This document shows, one piece after another, positions 60,388-64,000 of a stretch of 64,000 nucleotides of DNA. The stretch spans positions 1-64,000 of the forward strand of contig NZ_JAMBPP010000008.1 of the NCBI RefSeq assembly GCF_023369855.1, read 5' to 3'. Origin of the DNA: Actinotalea alkalitolerans. Lineage in GTDB: Bacteria > Actinomycetota > Actinomycetes > Actinomycetales > Cellulomonadaceae. Position numbers and translations under genes: made by a program. The stretch's first letter is position 1; the number at the start of each line of letters is the position of its first letter. The notes under the pieces were generated by a model, which ran no database searches, was not told where the DNA came from, and saw only the letters and a list, made by a program, of their open reading frames with translations.

Positions 60388-60654
60388 ATGTCCACGACCG
60401 AGATGCTCCGCCCTCGCCGCGCTGGTCCCGCGGGGGCGTCCCGGCTCACCCGTCGCGAGGTCGTGGTGCTCAGGCACCTGGCCGAGGACGCGACCCTGCA
60501 GCAGATCGCCGCCCGCCTGTTCGTGTCCCGGAACACGGTGAAGTCCCAGGTGCGCAGCCTGTACCGCAAGCTCGGGGTGTCTCGCCGTACGGAGGCCGTC
60601 GCCTGGGCGCGGAGCTCGGGTGCGGTCCCGGTCCGGACGGTGCCCGACCGGTAG
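60388..60654 (+). CDS. Stand-alone LuxR-type HTH protein
   Basis: An 88-residue protein consisting almost only of a GerE/LuxR helix-turn-helix (LTRREVVVLRHLAEDATLQQ, then IAARLFVSRNTVKSQVRSLY). There is no receiver or sensor domain. It lies before nirB with a divergent membrane protein behind it. GGAGG precedes the start. A role in controlling nitrite reductase is possible but not shown. Confidence 0.8.
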   Translation: MSTTEMLRPRRAGPAGASRLTRREVVVLRHLAEDATLQQIAARLFVSRNTVKSQVRSLYRKLGVSRRTEAVAWARSSGAVPVRTVPDR

Positions 60655-60662
60655 CCGGCGCC

Positions 60663-60698
60663 GTTCTCACACCACCCGACGGACCGGTGTGCGAGAAC
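60663..60698. promoter_or_regulatory. Hairpin after the LuxR-type gene
   Basis: GTTCTCACACC (60663-60673) pairs with GGTGT (60686-60690) and GAGAAC (60693-60698) with a 2-nt bulge. It may end the luxR-type transcript before the nirB promoters. Confidence 0.45.
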
Positions 60699-60699
60699 T

Positions 60700-60754
60700 G
60701 TTGCCCAGGGGTAACTCCCGGGTACCGCCGTGGGAAACACGGGCTCCCTAGCGT
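60700..60754 (+). promoter_or_regulatory. GlnR-like box 1 and -10 of nirB
   Basis: Half-sites GTTGC (60700), GTAAC (60711), GTACC (60722) and GGAAA(C) (60733) follow at 11-bp steps, as in GlnR targets (GTNAC-n6-GAAAC). GAAAC (60734) lies 15 bp before a -10-like TAGCGT (60749-60754), the same as in box 2. A transcript from here could use the Shine-Dalgarno GGAGG before ATG 60805. Confidence 0.55.
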
Positions 60755-60885
60755 CGAGGTGTACGGCCCGCCCGGGGTCGGCTGCACCTGGAGGACGACG
60801 ATCCATGGACACCAGCCCGCGCGAGGACTCCCCTGACGAGCTCGCCCCGCCGACCACAGGCCCCGTCGACGGGGTGATCGGGGAG

Positions 60886-60939
60886 TTGACAGAGCCGAAA
60901 CACCCCGGCCCCGCCACGGAAACTCCCGGCACCTACCGT
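60886..60939 (+). promoter_or_regulatory. GlnR-like box 2 and -10 of nirB
   Basis: TTGAC (60886), GAAAC (60897), a weak third site (60908) and GAAAC (60919) are spaced at exactly 11 bp. TACCGT (60934-60939) lies 15 bp after the start of the last GAAAC and 6 nt before ATG 60946. The box centre is about 41 bp upstream of that ATG, the position of a class II activator. Nitrogen-limitation activation of nirBD by GlnR is known in several actinomycetes. Confidence 0.75.
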
Positions 60940-60945
60940 GCTGGG

Positions 60946-63576
60946 ATGGGGGCGAGCAGGCATCTGGTGGTGGTCGGTGGCGGCATGGTCGCCCACCGCC
61001 TCGTCGAGGCGCTCCGCGACCGTGACGACGCCGGCACCTGGCGGGTCACCCTCTACGCCGAGGAGCCCCGCGCGCCCTACGACCGTGTCGCCCTGACCAG
61101 CTACTTCTCGGGCCGCGACGCGAGCGACCTCGCCCTGGGCACCCCCGACCTGTGGGACGACCCCCTGGTCCACCTGGTCCGCGACACCCGGGTCACCGAG
61201 ATCGACCGTGCGGCCCGCACCGTCACCACCGTCCGCAACGGCGGCTCGGGACCCACCGCGGTCGAGCCCTACGACGCGCTCGTGCTGGCCACCGGCTCGT
61301 ACGCGGCCGTCCCGCCGATCGAGGGCAGCGACCTGCCGGGCGTCTTCGTCTACCGCACGATCGACGACGTCGCCGCGCTGCGCGGCTGGGTCGAGGAGGC
61401 CGCCGCCCGCTGGAAGCGACCCGTACGCGGCGCCGTCGTGGGCGGCGGGCTGCTGGGGCTCGAGGCCGCGGGGGCGCTCCAGGCCCTCGGCGCGCAGAGC
61501 ACCGTCATCCAGTTCGGCCCCCGGCTCATGCCGCTCCAGGTCGACGAGGGCGGTGGCGAGGCGCTGCGCCGGCTGATCAACGGCAAGGGCGTGGCCGTCC
61601 GCCTCAACACCTCGACCACCCGCATGCGCCCGGGGCGCGACGGCAAGGTCCGGCGGATGGACTTCGCCGACGGCGGGCGGCTCGACGCCGACGTCGTGGT
61701 CCTGGCCACCGGGGTGCGCCCGCGGGACGAGCTCGCCCGGGCCGCGGGCCTGGACGTCGGGGAGCGCGGCGGCGTCGTGGTCGACGCCGGCTGCCGCACC
61801 GCCGACCCGCACGTCTACGCGGCCGGTGAGGTCGCCTGCATCGACGGCGCGGTGCACGGCATCGTCGCCCCCGGCTACGCCATGGCCGAGGTGGTCGTGG
61901 ACCGCCTGCTCGGTGGCCAGGCCGTGTTCCCCGGGGCCGACACCGCGACCAAGCTCAAGCTCTCCGGGGTCGACGTCGCGAGCTTCGGTGACGCCTTCGC
62001 GACCACCGAGGGTGCCCTCGAGCTGGTGCACGCCGACCCGGTCGCCGGGATCTACACCAAGCTCGTGCTCTCCGACGACGCCAAGACCCTGCTCGGCGGG
62101 GTGCTCGTCGGTGACGCCTCGGCCTACGCGTCGCTGCGGCCCATGCTCGGCCGCGCGCTGGACGGTGACCCGGGTGCCTACCTGCTGCCCGAGGGCGCGG
62201 GCTCGGCCGGACGCCCCGCCACCACGCTGCCCGACGACGCCACGGTCTGCTCGTGCAACAACGTCACCGCCGCGACCGTGCGCGGGGCCGTCACCGAGCA
62301 CGGCTGCACCGACCTCGCCGCGGTCAAGGCCTGCACCAAGGCCGGCACGAGCTGCGGGTCCTGCCTGCCGCTGGTTAAGAAGCTCGTCACCACCGAGCTC
62401 GAGAGCGCGGGCATCACGGTCAGCAAGGCCCTGTGCGAGCACTTCGACCTGTCCCGTGCGCAGCTCTTCGACGTGGTGCGGGTCACCGGGCTGACCACCT
62501 TCAGCGAGATCCTGACCAAGCACGGCCGGGACGGGCTGCCGCAAGGCGCTCGCGGGTGCGACATCTGCAAGCCCGTCGTCGCCTCGATCCTGGGGTCCCT
62601 GGACACCGGGCACGTGCTCGAGGGCGAGACCGCGACCTTGCAGGACACCAACGACCACGTCATGGCCAACCTCCAGAAGGACGGCTCGTACTCGGTGGTC
62701 CCGCGCATCCCGGGAGGTGAGGTCACCCCCGAAGGGCTGATGGTCATCGGGCAGGTCGCCAAGGACTACGGGCTCTACACCAAGATCACCGGCGGTCAGC
62801 GGATCGACATGTTCGGCGCCCGCCTCGAGCAGCTCCCCGAGATCTGGGGCCGGCTGGTCGACGCCGGCTTCGAGTCGGGCCACGCCTACGGCAAGTCCCT
62901 GCGCACCGTGAAGTCGTGCGTCGGGTCCACCTGGTGCCGCTTCGGCGTGCAGGACTCGGTGGCCCTGGCCGTCGAGCTCGAGCTGCGCTACCGGGGGCTG
63001 CGCTCGCCGCACAAGTTCAAGCTGGGGGTCTCGGGCTGCGCCCGCGAGTGCGCCGAGGCCCGTGGCAAGGACGTCGGCGTGATCGCGACCGACAAGGGCT
63101 GGAACGTCTACGTGGGCGGCAACGGCGGCTTCACCCCGCGTCACGCGCAGCTGCTCGCCGAGGACCTCGACACGCAGACCCTGGTGCGCACCATCGACCG
63201 GTTCCTCATGTACTACATCCGCACCGCCGACCGCCTGCAGCGCACCGCCCCGTGGGTCGAGGAGGTCGAGGGCGGGCTCGAGGGCGTCCGGGCCGTGGTC
63301 ATGGACGACAGCCTGGGCATCGCCGCGGACCTCGACGCCGCCATGGCCCGTCACGTCGACCTCTACCAGGACGAGTGGAAGGCCACCCTGGAGGACCCCG
63401 AGAAGCTGCGGCGCTTCGCGTCCTTCATCAACGCACCGACCACCCCCGACCCGTCGCTGGCCTACGTCGCCGAGCGCGGGCAGGTACGCCCCGCCACACC
63501 CGAGGAGCGGCTCGCCTCGAGCGACGGCTCCGGCCCCGTGCTCGTCGCGGGCACGACGTTGGAGGTCCGGCGATGA
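60946..63576 (+). CDS. nirB: Assimilatory nitrite reductase, large subunit
   Basis: An 876-residue NAD(P)H-dependent nitrite reductase that makes ammonium. Domains: FAD-dependent oxidoreductase (residues 1-400, with FAD motif VVVGGGMVAHR and NAD motif VVGGGLLGLEAAG), a BFD-like [2Fe-2S] part (CSCNN near 435 and CGSC near 468), then a siroheme/[4Fe-4S] domain with CVGSTWC (658-664) and CARECAEA. ATG 60946 is chosen because GlnR-like box 2 and a -10 lie just before it; the frame opens further upstream, and ATG 60805 with GGAGG would add 47 low-complexity residues. It overlaps nirD by 4 bp. Confidence 0.93.
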   Translation: MGASRHLVVVGGGMVAHRLVEALRDRDDAGTWRVTLYAEEPRAPYDRVALTSYFSGRDASDLALGTPDLWDDPLVHLVRDTRVTEIDRAARTVTTVRNGGSGPTAVEPYDALVLATGSYAAVPPIEGSDLPGVFVYRTIDDVAALRGWVEEAAARWKRPVRGAVVGGGLLGLEAAGALQALGAQSTVIQFGPRLMPLQVDEGGGEALRRLINGKGVAVRLNTSTTRMRPGRDGKVRRMDFADGGRLDADVVVLATGVRPRDELARAAGLDVGERGGVVVDAGCRTADPHVYAAGEVACIDGAVHGIVAPGYAMAEVVVDRLLGGQAVFPGADTATKLKLSGVDVASFGDAFATTEGALELVHADPVAGIYTKLVLSDDAKTLLGGVLVGDASAYASLRPMLGRALDGDPGAYLLPEGAGSAGRPATTLPDDATVCSCNNVTAATVRGAVTEHGCTDLAAVKACTKAGTSCGSCLPLVKKLVTTELESAGITVSKALCEHFDLSRAQLFDVVRVTGLTTFSEILTKHGRDGLPQGARGCDICKPVVASILGSLDTGHVLEGETATLQDTNDHVMANLQKDGSYSVVPRIPGGEVTPEGLMVIGQVAKDYGLYTKITGGQRIDMFGARLEQLPEIWGRLVDAGFESGHAYGKSLRTVKSCVGSTWCRFGVQDSVALAVELELRYRGLRSPHKFKLGVSGCARECAEARGKDVGVIATDKGWNVYVGGNGGFTPRHAQLLAEDLDTQTLVRTIDRFLMYYIRTADRLQRTAPWVEEVEGGLEGVRAVVMDDSLGIAADLDAAMARHVDLYQDEWKATLEDPEKLRRFASFINAPTTPDPSLAYVAERGQVRPATPEERLASSDGSGPVLVAGTTLEVRR

Positions 63577-64000
63577 CCACGACAACCACCACCCCGAGCA
63601 GCACCACCCCGAGCGTGCCCGTCGTGCTGGGCACCTCGAGCGACGCCGTCGGCTGGACCACGGTCTGCCACGTCGCCGACCTCGTGCCCGAGCGGGGGGC
63701 CGCGGCCCTGGTCGACGGCCAGCAGGTCGCCCTGTTCCGCCTCGCCGACGGCACCGTGCGCGCCGTGCAGCAGCTCGACCCGTTCAGCGGGGCGCACGTG
63801 ATGTCCCGGGGCATCGTGGGCAGCCGGGGCGACGCCCCCACGGTCGCCTCACCCATGTACAAGCAGGTCTTCGACCTGCGCACCGGGCGGTGCCTCGAGG
63901 CCGTGGGCCGTGAGCCGGTCGACCTGCGCACCTGGCCGGTGCGGGTCGAGGGCGGGCTGGTCATGGTCGCCGTGCCGGTCACCCCGAGCGCACCGGTCGC
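63573..64000 (+). CDS. nirD: Nitrite reductase small subunit, truncated by window
   Basis: At least 142 residues of a Rieske-fold NirD subunit, without iron-sulfur ligands, as usual for NirD. It begins with a Thr/Ser-rich tail, then GWTTVCHVADLVPERG and ASPMYKQVFDLRTGRCLE. ATG 63573 overlaps nirB (ATGA). The window ends before the stop codon. Confidence 0.92.
   Translation, partial: MTTTTTTPSSTTPSVPVVLGTSSDAVGWTTVCHVADLVPERGAAALVDGQQVALFRLADGTVRAVQQLDPFSGAHVMSRGIVGSRGDAPTVASPMYKQVFDLRTGRCLEAVGREPVDLRTWPVRVEGGLVMVAVPVTPSAPV

Follow-up and report, generated by a model that had tools for sequence, protein, structure and literature searches.

Two predicted nitrogen-limitation promoters of different class at the nirB operon of Actinotalea alkalitolerans

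The nirB gene of Actinotalea alkalitolerans is preceded by two putative GlnR boxes and has two possible starts, which raises the question of whether one promoter or two serve the gene, and whether one or two forms of the nitrite reductase are made. The window analysed is a 64,000-nucleotide part of contig 34, in a genome of 4.37 Mb and 35 contigs (assembly GCF_023369855.1). An earlier note on this DNA had proposed two boxes of identical geometry, each ahead of its own start. We predict that tandem nitrogen-limitation promoters of different class, P1 and P2, drive the operon nirB-nirD-cysG-nnaR-sirB, with P1 giving a long NirB and P2 a short NirB from a leaderless message, and consider this reading probable. 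The features are listed in Table 1.

Table 1. Features of the nirB region in window coordinates; the promoter -10 elements are predicted.
Feature	Position	Strand	Remarks
NnaR-type palindrome CTCAC-n18-GTGCG	60666..60693	+	At P1 only; matches the NnaR motif save for one base of the right arm
GlnR box 1	60700..60738	+	From sequence: GTTGC 60700, GTAAC 60711, GTACC 60722 (weak), GAAAC 60734
-10 of P1, TAGCGT	60749..60754	+	Predicted; 10 bp after GAAAC; TASCGT conserved in relatives
Shine-Dalgarno GGAGG of long NirB	60790..60794	+	From sequence; Shine-Dalgarno-led in-frame start after P1 in 6/6 genomes with P2
47-codon N-terminal extension of long NirB	60805..60945	+	Open in 6/6 genomes with P2; coding periodicity
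GlnR box 2	60886..60923	+	Strict a-b-x-b: TTGAC 60886, GAAAC 60897, GCCCC 60908 (degenerate), GAAAC 60919
-10 of P2, TACCGT	60934..60939	+	Predicted; 10 bp after GAAAC; TACCGT or TACGGT at equal spacing in 6/6 genomes with P2
nirB, short form from ATG 60946	60946..63576	+	876 aa; leaderless candidate; TIGR02374 nitrite reductase NirB, 1032 bits against a cut-off of 578
nirD	63573..64000	+	Continues beyond the window end; Rieske_2, 3.8e-37; first gene after nirB in the operon

The nearest named relatives of this NirB are those of Cellulomonas sp. APG4, Actinotalea subterranea and A. solisilvae. Past the window end, nirD is followed by a cysG-like gene, by nnaR (identified by its HemD and Trans_reg_C domains in Pfam) and by a CbiX/sirB-like gene; the operon was followed on locus L123 (3574-7094, corresponding to contig 34, 63573-67093). 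Every relative examined keeps this gene order over the length that its contig covers. A GlnR gene is encoded in the genome, its N-terminal domain matching Pfam PF21695 (GlnR_1st, 2e-42) and the protein matching PDB entries 8hih (best, 3.7e-86) and 8hig, as well as 4o1h, which is named GlnR. Directly upstream of P1 lies an open reading frame of 87 residues (60390-60653, forward strand) whose product resembles a solitary LuxR-type helix-turn-helix protein, and a Pfam search of it gave no match at E 0.001.

In both boxes the last GAAAC begins exactly 15 bp ahead of the -10 element (60734-60738 to TAGCGT at 60749, and 60919-60923 to TACCGT at 60934), as the earlier note had read them. The pattern GAAACN10TASSNT occurs four times in the whole 4.37-Mb genome, against one match for the reversed control, and the four sites are nirB P1, nirB P2, the glnA promoter and a promoter in a nitrate-assimilation region of contig 9. 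The stricter a-b-x-b box, KTNACN6GAAACN17GAAAC, has 17 matches in 19 genomes of the genus (12 ahead of glnA and five at nirB box 2) and none in the reversed control; in the source genome it matches twice, at P2 and glnA. These whole-genome counts and reversed controls rule out a chance origin of the boxes. The contig 9 promoter (locus L119, G000 contig 9, 33813-33833, reverse strand) is itself of the NnaR and GlnR type, with the same 28-bp palindrome, GTTCC-n6-GTAAC and GAAAC-n10-TACCGT; its region also holds a second NirB-like flavoprotein and is likely involved in nitrate assimilation.

GlnR-like boxes can be bound by MtrA and PhoP. The genome encodes MtrA (NF040689, 387 bits), and MtrA motifs are nearly identical to those of GlnR (PMC6277429), so that the boxes might mainly serve MtrA, or PhoP, with its GlnR-like half-sites. 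We consider this improbable: in the 19 genomes all matches to the strict pattern belong to nirB or glnA, and the GlnR b-site reads GAAAC. MtrA may nevertheless compete for the boxes.

The two promoters differ in what stands beside the GlnR box. At P1, just outside the interval considered in the earlier note, we identified a palindrome of the form CTCACACC-...-GGTGTGCG. The published NnaR motif is CTCAC(A/C), 13 to 16 bp, then GTGAG, with small variations (PMC11162112). The one-base right-arm variant seen here, GTGCG, also occurs in many relatives, and others have GTGAG at the same 28-bp span. Because the palindrome starts 67-68 bp ahead of the last P1 GAAAC both here and in most related nirB promoters, we conclude from this layout that P1 is the ordinary, ancestral NnaR and GlnR promoter of nirB in the wider family. 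At the nirB promoter of Streptomyces coelicolor, the binding of NnaR and GlnR is cooperative (PMC10704036). Within box 1 the positions of GTT-n6-(G)GTAAC/GAAAC and of the last GAAAC are conserved in relatives, with an exception in L010, where the last half-site is GTAAC. The distance from the inner GTAAC/GAAAC to the last GAAAC is 22 or 23 bp depending on lineage (examples are L014 and L009, with the palindrome 67 and 68 bp ahead of the last GAAAC); a shift of 1 bp at this promoter is apparently tolerated by GlnR, alone or together with NnaR.

Thus only part of the proposed common geometry stands. The spacing from the last half-site to the -10 is shared; the ladder of 11-bp steps describes box 2 (with its third unit degenerate) but not box 1, where the steps are 11, 11 and 12 bp, and by its final step P1 agrees only in part with the GlnR-activated promoter pattern gTnAC-n6-GaAAC. 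Likewise, the designation GlnR-like agrees with the GlnR gene and with the conservation of both boxes in relatives, but the NnaR-type palindrome indicates that box 1 is not a site for GlnR alone. The view of box 1 as the weak, dispensable one was rejected, as it is a conserved ancestral element.

Box 2 does follow the GlnR half-site pattern (TTGAC-n6-GAAAC, with the next GAAAC 22 bp on). A single match to the NnaR palindrome was found upstream of nirB, the site at P1, and none at P2, so P2 is not classed with the NnaR and GlnR promoters of nirB. Since strict-pattern matches in the genus genomes are confined to glnA and nirB P2, box 2 is assigned by its sequence to the strictest class of GlnR box in the genus, the glnA type, predicted to respond to GlnR only. 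There is precedent for its degenerate third half-site: a2 is dispensable in amtB (PMC5826061). P2 is present in six of the 19 genus genomes. All six fall into a single clade of the NirB tree (support 100/99), so that their agreement does not amount to six independent observations. In L010 the last P2 half-site is GAAAT. Among approximately 50 further nirB upstream regions inspected, none showed a second element of the box 2 type. An explanation of P2 by the nnaR gene of the operon is not supported, as relatives lacking P2 have the identical gene order; P2 is thus an addition rather than a necessity.

The way in which box 2 is encoded indicates what selection has preserved. The box lies within the reading frame of the longer NirB, as the earlier note had pointed out, and specifies (V/L)T(E/Q)PKH (TEPKH here). 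In all six genomes it is written with ACA and AAA codons, and the Glu of its last half-site with GAA. In the bodies of the same six nirB genes, AAA is used for 0 of 118 Lys, ACA for 1 of 346 Thr and GAA for 2 of 246 Glu codons. Because the bases of the box persist by means of codons nearly absent from nirB, we conclude that the DNA of box 2, not the encoded peptide, is what selection preserves. The rare codons at synonymous sites rule out protein-level selection as the cause of the conserved TEPKH peptide. P2 is thus best described as a clade-specific addition under DNA-level selection inside a coding sequence.

A box preserved in this way could serve as a GlnR site with no promoter attached, acting for instance as a roadblock to transcripts from P1 or within a looped complex at P1. 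Its position downstream of P1, inside the transcribed region, would suit such a role, and intragenic GlnR binding is reported in Mycobacterium tuberculosis (PMC4950008). We consider this unlikely, given that in 6/6 genomes a TACSGT -10 follows at exactly 10 bp, a spacing shared with P1 and glnA, and that a start codon lies at leaderless distance in three of them. The three are the window (L009), L010 and L014, in which an ATG, a candidate leaderless start, is found 6 nt past the P2 -10 (ATG 60946 here, where it had been placed before). In L011, L012 and L013, P2 is instead followed by a purine-rich Shine-Dalgarno-like sequence and, 57-72 nt downstream, a GTG. In related families, P1 of nirB commonly lies 6-7 nt ahead of an in-frame ATG (L029, L030, L075, L084, L087, L102 and others). 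Leaderless nirB messages from the NnaR and GlnR promoter therefore appear common in those families, and the position of ATG 60946 is not odd.

The long form requires that the extension be translated. GGAGG and ATG 60805 stand as proposed, 47 codons ahead of ATG 60946, in frame and without a stop. The extension frame is stop-free in 6/6 genomes with P2, in which the other frames are mostly closed, and in-frame starts follow both promoters in all six. With box 2 masked and the six genomes pooled, the extension has GC fractions of 0.84/0.51/0.87 at the three codon positions, near the values of the NirB core (0.79/0.53/0.97). The periodicity is significant by chi-square (p=1.6e-12), and the P1 leader used as control is flat (p=0.56); these values are optimistic due to the shared descent of the six genomes, although the extension is otherwise very divergent. 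Given this periodicity, the Shine-Dalgarno-led start and the open frame in 6/6 genomes, the long NirB is very probably made.

These observations also bear on the proposal that P2 alone drives nirB, with P1 inactive or serving a leader and ATG 60805 unused. In its favour, box 1 has the weaker half-sites and a final step of 12 bp, and the product of ATG 60946 starts near the beginning of the NirB family model. The weak half-sites tell less against P1 than they would otherwise, because relatives keep similarly weak ones beside the NnaR site. Against it, P1 with its NnaR site is an element conserved across related families, genomes without P2 have P1 as the sole nirB promoter of such type found, and the extension carries a coding signature; we regard it as very improbable.

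The reading of two promoters and two NirB isoforms is well supported at the level of sequence, and in this bacterium and five close relatives a single nirB gene probably gives rise to both a long and a short NirB. We predict that P1 would integrate nitrogen limitation, through GlnR, with NnaR, through the palindrome beside box 1, and that its message, with a Shine-Dalgarno leader, would be translated from ATG 60805 into a NirB with the 47-residue extension. P2, with its glnA-type box inside the coding sequence of that extension, would respond to GlnR alone. Transcription from P2 would begin at ATG 60946, or no more than one or two bases away from it, and give a leaderless message for the 876-residue NirB. 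P2 could thus provide short NirB and nnaR transcripts without a need for NnaR. Identical control of P1 and P2 is unlikely, as the promoters belong to different classes. Re-initiation at the second start could occur on P1 messages.

Whether the two forms differ in function is a separate matter. Both promoters may work and the long form still be no distinct functional isoform, P2 being extra GlnR-driven output and the extension a tolerated disordered tail. This overlaps the preferred reading of two promoters and two proteins, denying only a functional difference, and we give it about even chances. Outside box 2 the extension shows poor conservation, its length ranging from 22 to 48 codons, and relatives lacking P2 likewise have variable NirB tails of 11-37 residues; on the other side, the frame is kept open with coding periodicity, which points to translation. 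The long and short NirB may be functionally identical. Tentatively, we suggest a further possibility, that an Actinotalea/Cellulomonas-like clade gained a glnA-class GlnR promoter inside the nirB extension, so that a short NirB from a leaderless message, together with nnaR transcription, became independent of NnaR and uncoupled from the ancestral long form made under NnaR and GlnR. Regulation or stability would then distinguish the isoforms, and a positive feedback of NnaR on P1 would be primed by P2.

If the two-promoter reading is right, the locus offers a small, naturally occurring example of a global nitrogen regulator able to pick between two forms of one enzyme via promoter choice, and of a regulatory box kept inside a coding sequence through rare codons. 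Because an NnaR site is present at P1 but not at P2, the relation between GlnR and NnaR is testable within one operon. Caution is needed with annotations, as automatic start calling yields just one of the two NirB N-termini.

Several parts of this arrangement have counterparts in known systems. As here, an NnaR palindrome stands beside a GlnR box upstream of nirB at the NnaR-GlnR co-activated promoter of S. coelicolor (Amin et al. 2012, as cited in PMC10704036) and in the mycobacterial NnaR regulon; in M. abscessus nnaR also lies within the operon (PMC11162112). Unlike those systems, the locus has a second, putative GlnR-only promoter, located inside coding sequence. The glnA promoter of the same genus shares with P2 the a-b-x-b box, GAAAC about 10 bp ahead of TANNNT and the lack of an NnaR site, but P2 sits in the coding extension of nirB and can yield a leaderless message. 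Tandem promoters that give two proteins differing by an N-terminal extension are known from sigR p1/p2 of S. coelicolor (sigma-R and sigma-R', 55 residues, the longer form being unstable; PMC4921905). The coding extension upstream of a predicted internal promoter is found at nirB too, as judged from pooled periodicity and from the Shine-Dalgarno sequence and open frame in 6/6 genomes, whereas sigR encodes a sigma factor and its promoters have other regulators. In M. tuberculosis, GlnR site positions at glnA1 and glnA2 suggest that the downstream of two starts is used under starvation (distal to proximal for glnA1; PMC4950008); unlike nirB, these are other genes, and the switch is treated there as altering the 5' untranslated region rather than as producing protein isoforms. 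Our search of the open-access literature turned up neither tandem promoters at nirB nor isoforms of NirB. Thus, the NnaR and GlnR promoter of nirB and isoforms from dual promoters are known parts, and what appears new here is a predicted GlnR-only promoter inside the coding extension of nirB.
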